DNA from: an uncultured Bacteroidota bacterium
Lineage (GTDB): Bacteria; Bacteroidota; Bacteroidia; Bacteroidales; F082
DNA: 64,000 nt
Reading direction: 5' to 3'
Assembly (NCBI GenBank): GCA_903891085.1
Contig: CAITDJ010000008.1
Coordinates: 62,001 to 126,000, forward strand
Shown one piece after another: positions 426 to 7,263 of the stretch. How positions within the stretch are numbered: position 1 is the stretch's first letter; each line of letters starts with the position of its first letter. The notes under the pieces were generated by a model. It had not been told where the DNA came from, ran no database searches, and worked only from the letters and a program-made list of their open reading frames with translations. Both the position numbers and the translations under genes were made by a program.

Positions 426-459
426 TTTGCATATTATATCTATTAATGTCGTATGTTTG
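426..459 (+). promoter_or_regulatory. Bacteroidota-type promoter of the arsenic operon
   Basis: TTTG at 426-429 and TATGTTTG at 452-459 match the Bacteroidota -33 (TTTG) and -7 (TAnnTTTG) elements with a 22-base spacer, slightly longer than the usual 19-21. Transcription would start near 466, twelve bases before the ATG at 478. This rules out the in-frame TTG at 427 as the arsR start, because it lies inside the -33 element. Confidence 0.65.
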
Positions 460-480
460 CTGCATAAAACATATAATATG
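430..480. promoter_or_regulatory. Inverted repeat around the arsR promoter (candidate ArsR operator)
   Basis: CATATTATAT at 430-439 is perfectly inverted as ATATAATATG at 471-480, bracketing the -7 box and reaching the arsR start codon. A separate word, ACAAATCAT at 418-426, recurs exactly at 834-842 in front of the second gene of the operon. Either could be the autoregulatory site. The region is AT-rich, so chance remains possible. Confidence 0.3.
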
Positions 481-810
481 ATTAAAAAAGAACTATTCAA
501 CGATGATTTACAGGAACTGGCGGCTTTCGCGAAAGCAATTTCTCATCCGGCACGACTCGCTATCCTTAAATATCTCGCTGAAACGAAGTCCTGTATTTCG
601 GGTGATATCTCCGATCATCTGCCACTGAGCAGGACAACTGTTTCGCAGCATTTGAAAGAATTAAAAGATTTAGGGTTGATACATGGTTCGATTGATGGAC
701 TGAAAGTAAACTATTGTCTTTGTTCGACTCAAATTCAGGCCAGTCTTGCGAAATTTAACCAGTTTTTTGAACCTATCCGAACCAGTGAAATACATTGTGA
801 AACGCAATAA
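478..810 (+). CDS. arsR: ArsR/SmtB-family metalloregulatory repressor
   Basis: A 110-residue winged-helix repressor expected to hold the arsenic operon off until arsenite binds. The HTH is clear: the HPARLAILKYL helix near residues 23-33, then a recognition helix in PLSRTTVSQHLKELKDLGLI (49-68) and a wing before VNYCLC. Possible As(III) ligands are C39 (at the position of the ELCVC motif of E. coli ArsR, of which only one Cys is kept), C80, C82 and C107 near the C-terminus. The C80/C82 pair suggests a sensor site built differently from the R773 type. I use the ATG at 478 because the longer frame from TTG 427 would start inside the promoter. First gene of the arsenic operon. Confidence 0.9.
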   Translation: MIKKELFNDDLQELAAFAKAISHPARLAILKYLAETKSCISGDISDHLPLSRTTVSQHLKELKDLGLIHGSIDGLKVNYCLCSTQIQASLAKFNQFFEPIRTSEIHCETQ

Positions 811-826
811 AATAGTTGATTTCAGT

Positions 827-863
827 CAAATTTACAAATCATGCAAATTCTTGTAAATATTTG
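827..863. repeat. Inverted repeat between arsR and the next gene
   Basis: TTTACAA (831-837) and TTGTAAA (851-857) form a perfect 7-base inverted repeat with a 13-base loop. The match extends to CAAA (827-830) and TTTG (860-863) if a two-base bulge is allowed. It contains ACAAATCAT, which is also present just upstream of the arsR promoter. It may be a second operator or an attenuating hairpin; no U-run follows, so it is not a normal terminator. Confidence 0.35.
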
Positions 864-891
864 TTAATTAATAATATATAACTAATTTTTT

Positions 892-1623
892 ATGAAAAGG
901 AAGATATTTTGTTTACTCGCAATCTTATTGTTTACAACAAACACATTTACACAGACGAAGGAAAAACTGGAAGCAGCCGTTTTAAATAATAACGTTGCAT
1001 TTCTTGTTGCTACCGATGGAAATTCCAAATTTTCTGAAGCCAAAGAAATCGCTTCTCAGGCACAGAAAAAATATCCAAAATCAGAAGTGATTGCGCTTGA
1101 CCGACTCGATCAGACAAATGCTGCTCTTATTTCTAAATATGGCTTATCAGGTGCCCCCACACCCATCATCCTCGTTCTGGCATCAAATGGTGTAGTAACC
1201 GGAGGCTATGTTTTAGATCAGGCATCACCTGATATACTTGTGGATGCAATTCCTACCAAAAACCAGGCAGAAGCCTTATTGGCATTTTCAGAAGGAAAAG
1301 CAGCATTTATCGTTTTGTATAAAAAATCAATGATCGATAAAACTACAGCCCTTGAAGCGTGTAAGAACGCTGAAGCCGGATTAAATGCAAAAGCTAAAGT
1401 TGTCGAAATTGATCTTGAAGATAAAAGCGAGGCTAAATTTTTGAATTTATTGAAACCTGAAATGGAAGCTACTATCACCCATGTTTTGGTATTTAACGCC
1501 AAAGGTCAATTCACAGGTGAGTTTCAATCACCTGTTGCATCAGATGACCTTATTGCCTCATCACTCAAGGTTTTAAGCAGTGGTTGTGCTCCGGGTGCCG
1601 GAAGCGGTTGTTGTCCAAAATAA
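892..1623 (+). CDS. Secreted thioredoxin-like protein with C-terminal cysteine tail, arsenic operon
   Basis: A 243-residue protein with a signal peptide (about 1-20, ending TFTQ). The mature part looks like two thioredoxin-fold halves. The first (about 30-120) has SKYGLSGAPTPIILVL, resembling the helix and cis-Pro strand of thioredoxins; the second (about 130-225) has EATITHVLVFNAKGQFTG. Neither half has a CxxC active site. The only cysteines after the signal peptide are in the tail: C232, C240 and C241 (GCAPGAGSGCCPK). A vicinal Cys pair with a third Cys is a plausible As(III) site, so an arsenical-binding or delivery role in the periplasm is my inference. It lies second in the ars operon, ten bases before the ABC permease. 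I do not recognise a named family. Confidence 0.7.
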   Translation: MKRKIFCLLAILLFTTNTFTQTKEKLEAAVLNNNVAFLVATDGNSKFSEAKEIASQAQKKYPKSEVIALDRLDQTNAALISKYGLSGAPTPIILVLASNGVVTGGYVLDQASPDILVDAIPTKNQAEALLAFSEGKAAFIVLYKKSMIDKTTALEACKNAEAGLNAKAKVVEIDLEDKSEAKFLNLLKPEMEATITHVLVFNAKGQFTGEFQSPVASDDLIASSLKVLSSGCAPGAGSGCCPK

Positions 1624-1633
1624 ATACAGAAAT

Positions 1634-2851
1634 ATGAATCTGATAAAATTAGTCTGGCTCGAACTTGGTCAACGCAAAACCCAGTTAATTTCGGGCATTT
1701 TAGCCATTACTCTCGGAATCGGGGTAATTGTTGCCATCCGTTCCATTTCAGTTGTATCTGAAAAAGCGGTTGCCATCAACCTCGATAATCTTGGGGCAAA
1801 CATCATGGTTTTGCCGCAGGGAGCAGGTGTTGATAATTATTATGCTGCCGATATTGATGCCCCCACATTTCCTGAAGAATATGTTGAACGGATTGTAACT
1901 TCCAATCTGAGCGGAGTGGACAATTTATCACCCAAACTAACCCGGCGGATTGACATCAATGGTCAGAAATTGGTGTTGACCGGCATTCTGCCAAAAAATG
2001 AACTGGCATCCAAACCCATTTGGCAAAACTCCGGATTGTTCGGAGCCGAGTTACAGGCAGCATGTGGACCAAGTCCATCAAACGCAACATTAGGGTATAA
2101 AGATGAAAAACTGCAACGAAAATCAATCGATTCTCTTGGCATCAATGATTGCCTCATCGGCTCCAATGCAGCCTTCCGTTTAAAAGTAAAAGAAGGTGAT
2201 AAAATTAAGGTTGAAGGAAGTGAATTAGTTATCGCCAAAGTACTGGGCGAAACAGGAACCATTGACGATGACAGGGTTTTTGCCCATCTGCATACAGTCC
2301 AGAATATCCTTGGAATCCCGAATCAGGTCAGCGCCATCGAAATAATGGGTTGTTGCAATGCCATTTCGGATGGTTTGCTCGGTAAACTCCGTAACATTTT
2401 GCCCGATACAAAAATTACCACCATTGGCCAGATCGTTTCAACCCAAATTAAGACCAACCAACTGATGAATCAGATTTCACTTATCATACTGATTATCATA
2501 GTATTTGTTGGTAGTATTTCGATTGGTAATTATATGTGGGCCAATGTGAACGAACGTAAAAAAGAAATTGGCATCTTGCGTATGATTGGCTATCCCAAGT
2601 CGTCAATTTATTATATTCTGATGCTCAAAGCATCCATAATGGGTTTAATTGGTGGAATCATTGGTTATCTGGCTGGCATTTTGATAGCCTGGTTTTTAGG
2701 ACCTTATATCGCCGGTATCAACATCTCGCCCATTCCAATTCTCTTACTCTGGTCGGTATTGATTTCCGTATTCATTTCTTTGATCGGTTCGGTATTGCCG
2801 GCCTGGTTTGCAGCCCGTTTCGAACCTTACACAAATATGCAGGAAGTATGA
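1634..2851 (+). CDS. MacB/FtsX-type ABC transporter permease with periplasmic cysteines
   Basis: A 405-residue permease with the MacB topology: TM1 about 16-36, a large periplasmic domain about 40-280, then three TM segments near 281-303, 330-357 and 366-390. The ERKKEIGILRMIGYPKSSI motif (about 307-325) after TM2 is the FtsX/MacB coupling signature. Such permeases usually do not move substrate through the membrane core; they drive mechanical or periplasmic transfer. The periplasmic domain holds C144, C173 and a vicinal pair C240-C241 (EIMGCCNAI), unusual and suggestive of thiophilic metal handling. Start ATG 1634 is chosen over the GTG at 1580, which lies inside the previous gene. It overlaps the ATPase gene by four bases (ATGA). 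Arsenical substrate is inferred from context only. Confidence 0.85.
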   Translation: MNLIKLVWLELGQRKTQLISGILAITLGIGVIVAIRSISVVSEKAVAINLDNLGANIMVLPQGAGVDNYYAADIDAPTFPEEYVERIVTSNLSGVDNLSPKLTRRIDINGQKLVLTGILPKNELASKPIWQNSGLFGAELQAACGPSPSNATLGYKDEKLQRKSIDSLGINDCLIGSNAAFRLKVKEGDKIKVEGSELVIAKVLGETGTIDDDRVFAHLHTVQNILGIPNQVSAIEIMGCCNAISDGLLGKLRNILPDTKITTIGQIVSTQIKTNQLMNQISLIILIIIVFVGSISIGNYMWANVNERKKEIGILRMIGYPKSSIYYILMLKASIMGLIGGIIGYLAGILIAWFLGPYIAGINISPIPILLLWSVLISVFISLIGSVLPAWFAARFEPYTNMQEV

Positions 2852-3528
2852 AACCCATTTTGACAGTCCAACATATCGCCAAAACGTACAATATGCGGGA
2901 TGGTATCGTTTATGCCCTGAATGACGTTTCATTCAACATTCAGAAAGGCGATTTTGTTTCCATTACCGGCCCTTCCGGTTCAGGTAAAACTACCCTGCTA
3001 CTTACACTGAGCGGGCTAATCCGTCCGACATCAGGAGAAATTCTGTTCGAAAATCAAAATTTGGTAAATGCTTCTGACAAGGAACTGGCAGAGTTCAGAA
3101 AAAAGCACGTTGGATTTGTGATGCAGAACTTTTCACTTATTCCCTATATGACAGCCATTCAAAATGTTATGATTCCTTTGGGACTGAATGGCAAAACTTC
3201 TTCTGAACAAAAAACTCTATCATCGGCAGTACTGGAAATGGTTGGATTAGAGAACAGGCAAAATCATTTTCCAAGAGAACTTTCTGCCGGACAGCAGCAG
3301 CGTGTTGCCATTGCCAGAGCTTTGGTAAATAAACCCACGATTATTTTTGCCGACGAACCAACAGGAAATCTCGATCCATCACTATCAACTGAAATTTTAG
3401 AGTTTCTGCAAACAATCAATAAAGATCTGAATATCACTATTATGATGGTTACACATAGCCCTCAGGCTGCGGATTATGGAAATGTAAAAATCAAACTCAT
3501 TGACGGGAAAATTAATAACAAAAACTAA
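2848..3528 (+). CDS. ABC transporter ATP-binding protein, LolD/MacB type
   Basis: A 226-residue nucleotide-binding subunit that powers the preceding permease. Walker A is GPSGSGKTT (41-49). The Q-loop lies in FVMQNFSLIPYMT, followed by the signature LSAGQQQRVAIARAL and Walker B with its catalytic Glu, IIFADEPTGNLD; the H-loop is VTHSPQ. The family normally dimerises under two MacB/FtsX-type permeases. The four-base overlap with the permease indicates translational coupling, and arsC begins 16 bases after the stop. Nothing in the ATPase itself tells the substrate. Confidence 0.9.
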   Translation: MKPILTVQHIAKTYNMRDGIVYALNDVSFNIQKGDFVSITGPSGSGKTTLLLTLSGLIRPTSGEILFENQNLVNASDKELAEFRKKHVGFVMQNFSLIPYMTAIQNVMIPLGLNGKTSSEQKTLSSAVLEMVGLENRQNHFPRELSAGQQQRVAIARALVNKPTIIFADEPTGNLDPSLSTEILEFLQTINKDLNITIMMVTHSPQAADYGNVKIKLIDGKINNKN

Positions 3529-3544
3529 AATTGATTGATAAAAA

Positions 3545-3964
3545 ATGAAAATACTCATCCTTTGTACCGGAAACAGTTGCCGCAGTCAGATGGCGCATGG
3601 TTTCCTACAATCCTTTGATCCGGATATCAAAGTAAGCTCAGCCGGAACAGAAGCTTCCGGAAAACTTAATCCAAAAGCCGTTGCCGTCATGCAGGAAATT
3701 GGCATCGATATCAGTCACCATACTTCCGATTCAGTCGATTTGTATCTTGGGGAAGAGTGGGATTATGTGATCACCGTATGCGGTGGTGCCAGCGAGAACT
3801 GTCCGGCCTTCCTCGGGAAAGTGAAACATCGCCTGCACATTGGTTTTGATGATCCTTCCCATGTAACCGGAACGGATGACTATATCTGGAGTGAGTTTCG
3901 TCGCGTCAGAGATGAAATCAAAAAAGGATTCTGGAGGTTTTATGTTGAAAATATTCAGCAATGA
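3545..3964 (+). CDS. arsC: Arsenate reductase, LMW-phosphatase type (thioredoxin-coupled)
   Basis: A 139-residue enzyme reducing arsenate to arsenite in the cytoplasm. The N-terminal P-loop CTGNSCR (C7 to R13, CX5R) binds arsenate. The two redox cysteines of the pI258-type mechanism are at C79 and C86 (CGGASENC), seven residues apart as in S. aureus ArsC (C82/C89). The C7 to C79 to C86 relay implies regeneration by thioredoxin. It supplies arsenite to the ArsM and Acr3 encoded downstream. The intact Cys triad makes an ordinary tyrosine phosphatase unlikely. Confidence 0.92.
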   Translation: MKILILCTGNSCRSQMAHGFLQSFDPDIKVSSAGTEASGKLNPKAVAVMQEIGIDISHHTSDSVDLYLGEEWDYVITVCGGASENCPAFLGKVKHRLHIGFDDPSHVTGTDDYIWSEFRRVRDEIKKGFWRFYVENIQQ

Positions 3965-3978
3965 TTGAACTTAACATA

Positions 3979-4002
3979 TTCAAATTCACACATTTTCAAA
4001 TT
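3979..4002 (+). repeat. 24-base leader repeat, copy 1 (before arsM)
   Basis: A 24-base AT-rich sequence, starting TTCAAATTCACACA and ending CAAATT, lies 14 bases before the arsM start. An identical copy sits at 4867-4890, seven bases before acr3. Each is built from reiterated TTCAAATT/CACATT words. Confidence 0.8.
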
Positions 4003-4016
4003 TTCAAATTAATAAC

Positions 4017-4853
4017 ATGAACAACGAAGAACTAAAAAAGATCGTCAAAGAAAAATATGGCGAAATTGTGATGCAAAGCAAAACCATGAATGAATCATCC
4101 TGCTGTGGATCAACATCCTGTTGCAGCGATGTGGATTATACCATTTTCAGCGAAAGCTATACAACGCTCAAAGGCTATAATCCGGACGCCGATCTTGGTC
4201 TGGGTTGCGGTTTACCCACTGAGTTTACTCAGATAAAAGAAGGAGACACTGTGATCGATCTGGGCTCAGGAGCTGGAAATGATTGCTTTGTAGCCCGCGC
4301 ACTTGCCGGAGAAAAAGGAAAAGTGATTGGCATCGATTTCACTCCTGCCATGATCGAGAAAGCCCGTGAAAATGCCGAAAAGCATGGCTTTAATAATGTT
4401 GAATTCCGCTATGGCGATATCGAGAAAATTCCGGTAACGGCCAACAAAGCCGATGTTGTCATCAGCAATTGTGTGCTTAATCTTGTTCCGGATAAACAGA
4501 AAGCATTCAGCGAAATTTTCAGGGTACTTAAACCAGGCGGCCATCTTTCAGTTTCGGATGTTGTGTTGAAAGGTGAGCTTCCCGAAAAACTGAAACAGGC
4601 GGCAGAAATGTATGCCGGATGTGTTTCAGGTGCGATCCAGATGCCCGATTATCTGAAGATGATAACTGACAACGGATTATCAAATATTCAGGTTCAGAAA
4701 GAAAAACAGATTACAATTCCGGATGAAATTCTGCTGAATTACATTGATGTTCTGGAACTTGCATTTTTCAAAGGCTCCGGAGCCGGAATATTCAGCATTA
4801 CGGTTTATGCCGAAAAAGCAGTCTCAGATTGTGGCAGCGGTTGCAATTGTTAG
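4017..4853 (+). CDS. arsM: Arsenite S-adenosylmethionine methyltransferase
   Basis: A 278-residue enzyme methylating As(III) with SAM. The SAM motif I is [12 protein letters not shown] (79-90), with the acidic residue after strand 2 in [13 protein letters not shown]. The three catalytic cysteines map to C64 ([10 protein letters not shown]), C152 ([11 protein letters not shown]) and C202 (YAGCVSGA), corresponding to C72, C174 and C224 of the Cyanidioschyzon enzyme, so trivalent arsenic can be bound and methylated. Additional cysteines form an N-terminal patch (C29, C30, C35, C36) and a C-terminal CGSGCNC tail, possibly for capturing arsenite. It follows arsC by 52 bases, a gap holding the 24-base leader repeat. 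Confidence 0.93.
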
Positions 4854-4866
4854 CATTCTTCACATT

Positions 4867-4890
4867 TTCAAATTCACACATTTTCAAATT
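4867..4890 (+). repeat. 24-base leader repeat, copy 2 (before acr3)
   Basis: Exact duplicate of 3979-4002, placed between the arsM stop and the acr3 start. It also gives an argument for the acr3 start at 4898: the longer frame would translate through the repeat. Confidence 0.8.
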
Positions 4891-4897
4891 ACCCACC

Positions 4898-5977
4898 ATG
4901 CCTTCAAAAACCCGACTTAAATTTCTGGACAGGTATTTAACCCTGTGGATCTTCCTGGCGATGTTTATTGGTGTCTTTTCAGGATACTTTTTCCCATCCA
5001 TCGCCGGTTTCTGGGAATCACTGAAATCATCTCCCGAAAGCACAACCAATATCCCGATTGCCATCGGATTGATTTTGATGATGTATCCTCCACTGGCCAA
5101 AGTGAAATATGAGGAACTCGGTGATGTTTTCCGCAACTGGAAAGTACTGATTTTGTCACTGGTTCAAAACTGGATTATTGGTCCGGTCTTAATGTTTATC
5201 CTGGCGATTCTGTTGTTCAAATTCTTTCCGGGCGAAAACAATGCGAATCTGCCCTATGTATATGGGATCATCATGATCGGACTTGCCCGATGCATTGCTA
5301 TGGTGATTGTATGGAACGACCTTGCCAAAGGTGACACTCAGTATGCAGCTGGTTTAGTGGCATTTAACAGTATTTTTCAGGTGCTGTTCTTTTCGGTGTA
5401 TGCCTATTTTTTCATTGCAGTTCTACCAGCCTGGTTCGGTATTCCAACCAATGATGCAGTCGAAAATATTACCATCGGTCAGATAGCTGAGAGTGTATTC
5501 ATTTATCTAGGAATCCCCTTCATAGCTGGATTTCTGACCCGTTTTATCCTCATCAGGGTAAAAAGCAAGGTGTGGTATCACACAAAATTCATCCCGAAAA
5601 TCAGTCCGATAACGCTCATTGCACTGCTCTTCACAATTGTTGTAATGTTCTCACTCAAAGGGGAATATATCGTCAAAATACCCTTCGATGTGATCTTGAT
5701 TGCTGTTCCTCTGCTCATATACTTCGTAATCATGTTTGTAATTTCGTTCTTTATGAGCAAAAAGGTTGGTGCAAACTACGAGCAATCTGTAACGCTCTCG
5801 TTTACAGCAGCCAGTAATAATTTTGAATTGGCTATTGCAGTTGCCATTGCCATTTTCGGAATGAACTCAGGCGAAGCTTTTGCGGCTGTGATAGGTCCGT
5901 TGGTGGAGGTTCCGGTGATGATTGGGTTGGTAAATGTTGCTTTTTATTTCAAAAGAAAGTACTTTCAGTCGAGTTAA
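4898..5977 (+). CDS. acr3: Acr3-family arsenite efflux permease
   Basis: A 359-residue membrane protein with about ten TM segments that exports arsenite using the proton gradient. The [19 protein letters not shown] segment carries the conserved Cys essential in characterised Acr3 proteins, and the last helix has the conserved Glu ([13 protein letters not shown]). Length is normal for the family. I choose ATG 4898 ([17 protein letters not shown]), because the family starts shortly before the DRYLTLWIF helix and the upstream extension from 4829 overlaps arsM. Rhodanese follows after 17 bases. Confidence 0.93.
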
Positions 5978-5994
5978 ACTTCATTGTTAAAACG

Positions 5995-6381
5995 ATGGAA
6001 AACAAAATAATACATGTTGGAGCGAAGGAGGCTTACGATCTTCTTGCAAACCAAAAGGCTGTCCTGCTGGACATTCGCATTGAATATCTGCACGATTTTA
6101 AGCAGTTTGCAGTGCCCTGTAGCATACATATCCCTTTTGAGAATCTTGCAGAAAGGATTGATGAATTGCCAAAAAACTTGTTTTTTATTTGTGCAGATTC
6201 CTCCGGAATCAACAGTCAAAAAGCTGCGAAAATACTTCTTGATCATGGTTTTGAGACAGTTGGAAATCTTTCCGGAGGCATGGTGGATTGGGAAAGAACA
6301 GGCATGCCTACGGGGATCGATCAGGCAGAATCGCTAACCGGCTCTTGTATGTGCCAACTAAAAAAGAGGAAGAAATTATAA
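5995..6381 (+). CDS. Rhodanese-domain protein with CxC tail, end of arsenic operon
   Basis: A 128-residue single rhodanese domain. It has the family LLDIRIEYLHDF strand-helix (about 24-36), a candidate persulfide Cys C66 in the active-site loop (FICADSSGINS) and the GGMVDWERTGMPT C-terminal signature (about 94-106). The loop is CADSSGI rather than the common CxxGxR, so sulfurtransferase activity is likely but not certain. The C-terminus TGSCMCQLKKRKKL adds C118 and C120. Its operon position suggests sulfur-thiol chemistry linked to arsenic, for example thioarsenical formation or thiol repair, which is inference. It has no signal peptide, so it is probably cytoplasmic. Confidence 0.8.
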   Translation: MENKIIHVGAKEAYDLLANQKAVLLDIRIEYLHDFKQFAVPCSIHIPFENLAERIDELPKNLFFICADSSGINSQKAAKILLDHGFETVGNLSGGMVDWERTGMPTGIDQAESLTGSCMCQLKKRKKL

Positions 6382-6432: not shown

Positions 6433-7263
6433 ATGGCCGAAAAAACCCAGCTTCCCAATGATGAAAAGACGATGTCGTTTTGGGATCATCTGGAGGAATT
6501 ACGTAAGGTTCTGGTAAGAAGTGCCCTGGCGGTGACGGTCTTAAGTATCATTGCCTTCATGAACAGACAATTTATTTTCGATTCCATCGTATTGGCACCA
6601 ACGAAACCCGATTTCTTAACCAACAAGTTCTTCTGCTGGGCCGGAGAATATTTCTCAATTGAAGGTATTTGTATGGATAATTCCGGCATGGAAATCATCA
6701 ACCTGAATATGTCAGGGCAGTTCATGACGCATATGTATATTTCGTTTATTGTCGGTGTTTTTATTGCCTTTCCGTTCATCCTTTCACAAATATGGCGATT
6801 TATCCGCCCGGCATTACATTCCACTGAGGCCAAACTTTCAGGTTGGGCCATTATTGCTAGTTCATTATTGTTTTTTATGGGTGCCCTGTTCAGTTTTTAT
6901 ATGATCATCCCGATGACAATCAATTTCTTCAGCGGCTATCAGGTGAGCGAAATGGTATCCAATCAGATTTCTTTAACTTCTTATATCTCAACTTTCGTAT
7001 CCTTAAATTTCGGGATTGGGTTGGTGTTTGAACTGCCGGTTTTAGTATTTTTTCTGACAAAAATTGGAATAGTGACACCCGCATTTCTCAAAAAGAATCG
7101 CAAATATACCCTGATCATCCTGTTGATAATTGCTGCTATTATCACGCCACCAGATATGTTTACGCAGATATTAACGACCATCCCGCTTGTGGGATTGTAC
7201 GAGTTGAGCATCCTTGTTTCGAGCAGGGTGTACAAGAAACAACAACAAGCGGCGGCAGTTTAA
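6433..7263 (+). CDS. tatC: Sec-independent protein translocase TatC
   Basis: A 276-residue inner-membrane protein with six TM segments, the twin-arginine signal receptor of the Tat pathway. The N-terminal cytoplasmic motif SFWDHLEELRKVL is diagnostic, and the FPFILSQIWRFIRPAL segment matches the family FP-x-x-Y/L-Q-x-W-x-F region. The first periplasmic loop is long (about residues 45-95), as is common in Bacteroidota. No tatA gene is adjacent. Its TAA stop overlaps the TAA of the convergent hydrolase gene in a TTAA tetranucleotide (7260-7263). Confidence 0.95.
   Translation: MAEKTQLPNDEKTMSFWDHLEELRKVLVRSALAVTVLSIIAFMNRQFIFDSIVLAPTKPDFLTNKFFCWAGEYFSIEGICMDNSGMEIINLNMSGQFMTHMYISFIVGVFIAFPFILSQIWRFIRPALHSTEAKLSGWAIIASSLLFFMGALFSFYMIIPMTINFFSGYQVSEMVSNQISLTSYISTFVSLNFGIGLVFELPVLVFFLTKIGIVTPAFLKKNRKYTLIILLIIAAIITPPDMFTQILTTIPLVGLYELSILVSSRVYKKQQQAAAV

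Follow-up and report, generated by a model that had tools for sequence, protein, structure and literature searches.

The usual account of arsenic resistance in bacteria rests on cytosolic reduction, methylation and export through single-protein transporters of the inner membrane. ArsP and ArsEFG handle organoarsenicals, and ArsD is a cytosolic protein with a thioredoxin-like fold. Among ATP-binding cassette (ABC) transporters, MacB and LolCDE move peptides and lipoproteins, and the LolCDE-LolA and HrtBA systems work by extraction from the membrane and hand-over to a carrier. The Sao (selenocysteine-assisted organometal) operons, attributed to Haft and Gwadz in 2023, reportedly combine an ABC transporter with thioredoxin-like proteins and proteins ending in Cys-Cys. 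In a survey covering about 2,500 strains, 5 of the more than 700 transporters in ars operons were of the ABC type, and the portion consulted suggested a lesser role for them (PMC4435449, 2015). According to the part of the source consulted, Cys12, Cys13 and Cys18 of ArsD take part in the transfer of As(III) to ArsA (PMC12607644). In Campylobacter jejuni, locus 1649-1656 is described, in the sections consulted, as an iron-uptake system comprising an FTR1 permease, P19, a DUF2318 protein, two ABC permeases, an ATPase and two thioredoxins, the latter being proposed to reduce iron; the substrates of its ABC part are stated there to be unknown (PMC6083913). This study focuses on an operon in a 64,000-nucleotide (nt) stretch of DNA from an uncultured Bacteroidota bacterium (contig CAITDJ010000008.1, positions 62,001 to 126,000; hereafter the window), in which ars genes surround a secreted protein (SEC), an ABC permease (PERM) and its ATPase (ATP).

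SEC, PERM and ATP are proposed to constitute an ArsR-linked module for the handling of arsenic in the periplasm, with SEC as a three-thiol carrier exchanging arsenicals with PERM-ATP, a reading to which we give slightly better than even chances. The operon that houses them is composed as follows.

478 to 810, forward strand: arsR, an ArsR/SmtB repressor with Cys39, 80, 82 and 107 (HTH_5 match)
892 to 1623, forward strand: SEC, a secreted tandem-thioredoxin protein with a three-cysteine tail (232, 240, 241) and Cys157 (structure model and Foldseek; signal peptide by eye)
1634 to 2851, forward strand: PERM, an FtsX/MacB-type (type VII) ABC permease with Cys144, Cys173 and Cys240-Cys241 (FtsX and MacB_PCD matches)
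2848 to 3528, forward strand: ATP, an ABC ATPase of the LolD/FtsE/MacB type (ABC_tran, 2e-35)
3545 to 3964, forward strand: arsC, a thioredoxin-type arsenate reductase (LMWPc; arsC_pI258 family at 139.7 bits, under its cut-off of 174.3)
4017 to 4853, forward strand: arsM, an arsenite methyltransferase (PRK11873, 356.9 bits, cut-off 263)
4898 to 5977, forward strand: acr3, an arsenite efflux permease (TIGR00832, 438.4 bits, cut-off 282.8)
5995 to 6381, forward strand: a rhodanese-domain protein, the final gene of the run (Pfam Rhodanese)

Successive genes from arsR to the rhodanese gene are separated by 81, 10, -4 (the PERM/ATP overlap), 16, 52, 44 and 17 nt. With arsR, an arsenate reductase and an arsenite efflux gene in one run, as seen from the open reading frames and from Pfam and NCBIfam, the locus qualifies as an ars operon. 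An earlier note, made from the letters of this DNA, had given the gene order and small gaps from arsR to acr3 as they are found by these same means, and had correctly placed the end of the span 478-6381, but left unnamed the rhodanese gene that lies inside it. Just beyond, tatC (6433-7263, same strand) begins 51 nt past the rhodanese gene, as it also does in another locus, L012.

A single scan of genome contigs with PERM yielded 74 loci (L011 to L084), which were re-annotated in six frames with hidden Markov models built from the loci themselves. Where at least 900 nt of upstream sequence is available (68 loci), SEC directly precedes PERM in 67, the sole locus without it being L029 (932 nt upstream), and ATP lies directly downstream in all 72 loci with at least 700 nt on that side. 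Among the 69 loci holding both SEC and ATP, 64 have gaps under 200 nt and under 100 nt. Since the trio stays together in dozens of divergent loci, its arrangement goes beyond chance. Moreover, distance matrices are strongly correlated within the trio (PERM-SEC 0.79, n = 70; PERM-ATP 0.82, n = 73; SEC-ATP 0.75, n = 69) and less so outside it (PERM-acr3 0.42, n = 50; PERM-arsC 0.41, n = 42), which indicates that SEC, PERM and ATP are inherited as a unit; L054, a near-duplicate of L052, was dropped from these correlations, and both were kept in the locus counts. Judging by the titles of the scan entries, the trio is carried mostly by Bacteroidota, and also by Ignavibacteria, Kapaibacterium, Deltaproteobacteria/Syntrophaceae, Planctomycetota and Neomarinimicrobiota; one title each from Arenicella and Peptostreptococcaceae probably reflects mis-binning. 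When a profile of 49 SECs was searched, it brought just two weak, partial additions (E 8.7e-5 and 8.6e-4). Spread of the trio by plasmids was considered and set aside, the single plasmid match being a distant Pelobacter relative with 28.1% identity.

The association of the trio with arsenic genes was assessed in 58 long loci, defined by a combined flank of 8 kb or more, with acr3, arsC, arsM, arsP, arsA and arsD above set score limits taken as core ars genes. A core ars gene is present in 48 of these loci, within 2 kb in 43, and acr3 itself in 44; among the 16 shorter loci, 11 have a core ars gene. By comparison, none was counted in 19 control regions (11-16 kb), drawn from other genomes and surrounding their next-best FtsX permeases, of which 7 are FtrD-linked and 12 are others (48/58 vs. 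0/19; Fisher p 4e-11), the comparison being imperfect in that trio loci vary in length and related loci are not independent. Matches below threshold in the controls, which do not enter this count, are an arsR at 45 bits with a rhodanese at 44 bits in L124 and an arsA at 124 bits (limit 500) in L127. The trio is thus not found mostly away from ars loci, the outcome that the earlier note had named as fatal to its proposal. That note had also called the route separate from Acr3, which holds only in part: with acr3 in 44 of the 58 long loci, the module usually accompanies Acr3. ArsP and ArsEFG likewise share islands with the trio, belong to different families and are absent from the window operon; an ArsP match is found in 20 of the 58 long loci, 19 of them above the score limit. 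The genome of the window (G000) encodes two ArsP-family permeases above the Pfam cut-off (C8:36453-37319 and C114:38713-39537), one of them on the same contig as the operon, about 25 kb upstream of arsR. The trio is rare, being present in 2 of 395 genomes sampled evenly across the phylum, the window's own included. Such rarity would suit multidrug-type ABC genes, unrelated to arsenic, whose insertion into an ars operon was accidental, but the contrast between trio and control loci and an operator candidate shared with ordinary ars operons make this extremely unlikely.

Two elements precede arsR in the window.

426 to 459, forward strand: an exact match to a Bacteroidota-type promoter (TTTG-N22-TAtgTTTG), directly before arsR
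447 to 464, forward strand: a putative ArsR operator, an inverted repeat over the -7 box, which recurs at trio starts

The promoter was matched against what we take to be the Bacteroidota consensus; taken by itself, this pattern does not reach significance in the window (7 matches vs. 4.99 expected), and a strict promoter pattern precedes just 6 of 40 arsR genes. For the operator, the pattern TGwCGTAyrTTTrCGwCA with up to three mismatches was set after the sites had been seen, and the following counts are therefore not an independent test. The candidate is found at 37 of 67 module starts, window included, namely 27 of the 35 in which arsR comes first (the window among them) and 10 of the 32 in which SEC does. 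It matches 82 times in 956 kb of trio loci, compared with 8, 7 and 8 times in Markov-1 random sequence and never in 467,812 nt of controls; palindromic sites that match on both strands were counted once per strand in the trio and Markov-1 sets, so that the distinct sites number fewer than 82. With two mismatches allowed, a related repeat of 14 bases occurs 41 times in trio loci and once in controls. Similar sites precede ordinary arsR-arsC-arsM-acr3 runs in L036 (4054), L053 (13232) and L056 (10382), and where SEC comes first, as in L039, the site stands directly before SEC, with arsR after ATP. Present at over half of the starts examined, this candidate operator ties the module, at the level of sequence, to an ArsR-type regulon. 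A variant inverted repeat near TTTCGTATTTTTGCGAAA occurs in the vicinity of arsR or arsE in modules of the arsP/arsEFG type (L011 3961, L012 3747, L016 2179, L036 11064, L048 1906) and suggests a putative second ArsR specificity within the same islands.

The tail of the window SEC reads CAPGAGSGCCPK and holds Cys232, Cys240 and Cys241. The protein had been thought to carry cysteines in this C-terminal tail only; those of the tail are there, but Cys7 in the signal peptide and the conserved Cys157 in the second thioredoxin domain had been overlooked. Among 63 full-length members, window included, the last 40 residues contain exactly three cysteines in 62 and four in one; Cys232 is aligned in all 63 and Cys157 in 58. 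Three terminal cysteines are also present in the deep-branching, split or partial SECs of L031, L044, L064, L068, L071, L075 and L076, the last two being Planctomycetota members, and the SEC of L077 is truncated, with no tail cysteine visible. The window SEC matches no Pfam or NCBIfam family at E 0.01, and no named family covering SEC was found among the Pfam and NCBIfam matches listed; for Thioredoxin_6, 24 of 49 scanned SECs have a match at E 0.1 or better (best 1.6e-6). In an AlphaFold2 model with a predicted local distance difference test (pLDDT) score of 90.3, SEC folds into two thioredoxin-like domains followed by a disordered tail (residues 234-243 under 50), and its Foldseek matches include QSOX1, an archaeal disulfide oxidoreductase, calsequestrin and PDI (E down to 7.6e-7). 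Model and Foldseek thus agree with the earlier description of a secreted two-domain thioredoxin-like protein, for which signal peptides were judged by eye; the domain arrangement differs from that of the matches, since whole-chain template-modelling scores are low (about 0.3) and root-mean-square deviations large. As the N-termini of SEC members resemble signal peptides, again by eye, and 9 of 63 match a lipobox pattern (at least the L061 match being spurious), SECs appear to be exported by Sec, some of them membrane-tethered. In L018, two different SEC genes (7229 and 9965) flank the permease and ATPase genes within one gene run.

PERM is a predicted type VII (MacB/LolC/HrtB-like) ABC permease, modeled with four cysteines in its extracytoplasmic domain. 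It matches MacB_PCD at 36.9 bits (cut-off 27) and FtsX at 73 bits (cut-off 25.5), and its model, of modest confidence (pLDDT 74.7), in which long helices are predicted on both sides of a large domain, retrieves MacB, LolC/E and HrtB in Foldseek. The cysteines of the window protein are exactly the four listed in the earlier note: 144, 173, 240 and 241. Across the family (n = 70 with the window), Cys144 is conserved in 69 members, Cys173 in 68, and Cys240 and Cys241 in all 70; the invariance of the latter pair is partly biased, because IEIMGCCN, one of six peptide patterns used in the scan, covers both residues, and Cys144 and Cys173 fall outside all six. All four cysteines are present as well in a PERM recovered by protein search of a whole genome (G160), one already represented by L051. 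In an alignment of PERM with 34 further permeases (8 nearer relatives and 26 others of the FtsX type), none shows the insertion that holds Cys144 or has the CC pair. A second, divergent ATPase-permease pair directly follows the trio in L067 (10073-12028), without cysteines at the four family positions. The fold kinship of PERM with MacB and LolCDE is what would be expected if PERM-ATP transported SEC or some other protein or peptide, the cysteines serving folding or targeting. However, SECs appear to leave the cytosol by Sec, given their signal-peptide-like N-termini and occasional lipoboxes, and the family cysteines of PERM would be left unexplained, which makes such a cargo very unlikely.

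How far the trio resembles described systems can be judged from several comparisons. The best relatives of PERM outside its family, from seven genomes of a 198-genome phylum sample (E 7e-34 to 1e-39), come closest. Their neighbour proteins are FtrD-like (PF10080) in the two that were scanned, as in the Pelobacter relative, and look alike by eye in the rest. Such FtrD/P19-type loci, to be compared with C. jejuni 1651-1656, also place an FtsX-like permease and an ATPase next to a Cys-rich protein, and all 8 nearer permeases share a cysteine at the position of PERM Cys241. They differ in their FtrD-like partner, in a second cysteine three residues on (CxxC instead of CC) and in the lack of the Cys144 insert, and no core ars gene is found in any of the 7 FtrD-linked regions; conversely, the Pfam scan detected no PF10080 in the window operon. 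The link of PERM to the C. jejuni locus runs through the FtrD/DUF2318 partner and not through a comparison of permeases. With MacB of MacAB-TolC, HrtBA and LolCDE, the trio shares the FtsX and MacB_PCD domains, a LolD-like ATPase and the predicted helix layout, but it alone has four nearly invariant cysteines and a secreted thioredoxin-fold partner. In MacAB-TolC, ATPase and permease are fused, whereas the window operon has separate genes and a single permease gene. No MacA-like adaptor or TolC was found by Pfam in the window operon, and none was recognised among the recurrent neighbours of the other loci, which were judged by eye and, for ten cluster representatives, by Pfam; a route of the MacAB-TolC type therefore cannot be assumed for the trio. 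Compared with LolCDE, both ATP (221.3 bits against LolD, cut-off 307.75) and PERM (38.5 bits against lolCE, cut-off 362.45) remain below the equivalog cut-offs.

ArsD and the Sao operons are alike in other respects. ArsD also brings a three-thiol motif, CC plus C, into ars operons (PMC12607644, in the part consulted), but it serves ArsA, whereas SEC is apparently exported, combines two thioredoxin domains and carries its thiols in a C-terminal tail. No ArsD match for SEC was found among the families listed, and the likeness between the two, drawn by analogy, would be one of function and not of homology. Likewise, no Sao family matched SEC among the NCBIfam families listed, and ATP matches the SaoA model at 140.7 bits (cut-off 360), SaoA being one of 190 ABC ATPase models matched.

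On these grounds, we infer the binding of arsenic by SEC, the substrate of PERM-ATP and the direction of transport as follows. The three sulfurs of the SEC tail would bind a trivalent arsenical, either As(III) or methylarsenite, making SEC a periplasmic counterpart of ArsD. SEC would dock on a PERM dimer, and ATP-driven motion of the periplasmic domain of PERM would hand the arsenical over, with the cysteines of PERM and the tail of SEC taking part in thiol exchange. On the one hand, PERM may strip the trivalent arsenical off the inner membrane at its outer face, or catch it after export by Acr3 or ArsP, and load it onto SEC, which would keep it away from periplasmic thiols. On the other hand, PERM may unload SEC for expulsion. 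The first direction, extraction and loading, is favoured as the likelier because of the analogy with LolCDE-LolA and HrtBA.

Several observations weigh against an arsenic-handling module. Ten of the 58 long loci contain no core ars gene (L021, L024, L027, L033, L060, L061, L071, L075, L076 and L078). Six of these (L021, L024, L027, L061, L075 and L076) also have no arsR match before the module; in the other four (L033, L060, L071 and L078), an arsR-family match lies directly before it. Copies of acr3 elsewhere in the genome were considered as support for the core-free loci and discarded: they exist in 8 of the 10 genomes (not those of L061 and L076), which is uninformative because 93 of 148 phylum genomes have acr3. 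Even under its post hoc definition, the operator candidate is missing from 22 of the 32 modules that start with SEC and from 8 of the 35 that start with arsR. In PERM, a cysteine at position 173 also occurs in 8 of the 26 other FtsX permeases, which makes it weaker evidence, and a spatial cluster of the four cysteines cannot be claimed, since the pLDDT is modest and residues 127-164, with Cys144, fall under 50. Finally, the nearest PERM relatives are FtrD-linked, in iron- or copper-type surroundings and not among arsenic genes, and an additional cysteine four residues past Cys157 (CxxxC) in 31 of 63 SECs allows for a redox role.

The iron- and copper-type surroundings of those relatives, together with the core-free loci, would agree with another thiophilic metal or metalloid (antimonite, copper or mercury) as the substrate, the association with ars genes reflecting coinciding stresses. 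Nevertheless, the trio lies inside ars islands in most long loci, and operator candidates are common to the module and to ordinary ars operons; we regard another substrate as unlikely. The CxxxC motif in the second domain of SEC, and its thioredoxin fold as seen in the model and in Foldseek, would in turn fit a redox module. SEC and PERM might then keep periplasmic thiols reduced, or PERM-ATP might export a low-molecular thiol that complexes arsenic beyond the cytosol, the cysteines engaging in thiol-disulfide exchange instead of arsenic binding. In the same direction point the arsE-, arsF- and arsG-like (thioredoxin, CcdA) matches in 23, 17 and 21 of the 58 long loci, respectively, and the thioredoxins proposed as iron reducers in the FtrD-type locus of Campylobacter (PMC6083913, in part). 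Against this stand the absence of CxxC from the bodies of the SECs listed, the fact that the best-conserved SEC cysteines are an odd number, three, in a flexible tail and not a disulfide pair, and the window SEC, which has Cys157 alone outside its tail and signal peptide. A redox role is thus rather unlikely, and the carrier reading, in which SEC exchanges arsenicals with PERM-ATP, is retained.

Other cysteine-rich proteins recur in the trio islands. An outer-membrane barrel with a mature QCC start (OMbb) and a three-cysteine lipoprotein (LP14), which match in 14 and 13 of the 58 long loci, respectively, were considered as trans-envelope partners and left out of the system, because 12 regions around OMbb relatives (12 genomes, the window's included) hold no ars-type match; such relatives exist in 18 of 198 phylum genomes. 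A second OMbb copy in G160 (C24:34489), outside those 12 regions, lies about 9 kb from the trio of that genome. The OMbb and LP14 genes adjoin each other in several trio islands (L079 5791-7136, L035 3197-4545, L063 5499-6803 and others); besides the lipobox, LP14 has three conserved cysteines in 12 of 12 rows, and the QCC start of mature OMbb is seen in 13 of the 16 rows listed. The window's genome carries such a pair of lipoprotein and QCC barrel at G000:C148:6256-7558 (L151), with no ars-type match within 16 kb. Small proteins with a cysteine cluster at both ends, terminating in CCPK, CCPKK or CCSK, are encoded inside the ars islands of L032 (11305-11598), L035 (9220-9525), L039 (11772-12065) and L041 (4629-4928); that of L039 has no Pfam match.

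No description of the SEC-PERM-ATP trio was found in the titles and abstract openings listed by searches of the open-licence literature, a body of text that leaves subscription papers mostly outside. By term search, PMC6205960 contains neither "ABC" nor "MacB", and PMC9144182 neither "ABC transporter" nor "MacB"; the trio is not described in the portion of the 2015 survey consulted (PMC4435449). The trio is thus apparently an undescribed extension of an ars operon by a type VII-like ABC transporter and a new candidate carrier family. All 74 scan loci come from entries marked as metagenome-assembled genomes or "uncultured," which may be why it has gone without description. A bolder formulation, to which we give somewhat less than an even chance, is that the trio represents the first dedicated periplasmic arsenic-trafficking system, formed by a two-domain three-thiol carrier and a Cys-bearing type VII ABC transporter, controlled by ArsR and acting downstream of Acr3 or ArsP in Bacteroidota, Ignavibacteria/Kapaibacteria, Deltaproteobacteria, Planctomycetota and Neomarinimicrobiota. 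If the carrier and ABC module is real, it would add an energy-driven periplasmic step to arsenic resistance and would suggest a function for one branch of the MacB/LolC-like transporters, with SEC as a small candidate three-thiol binder of arsenic.

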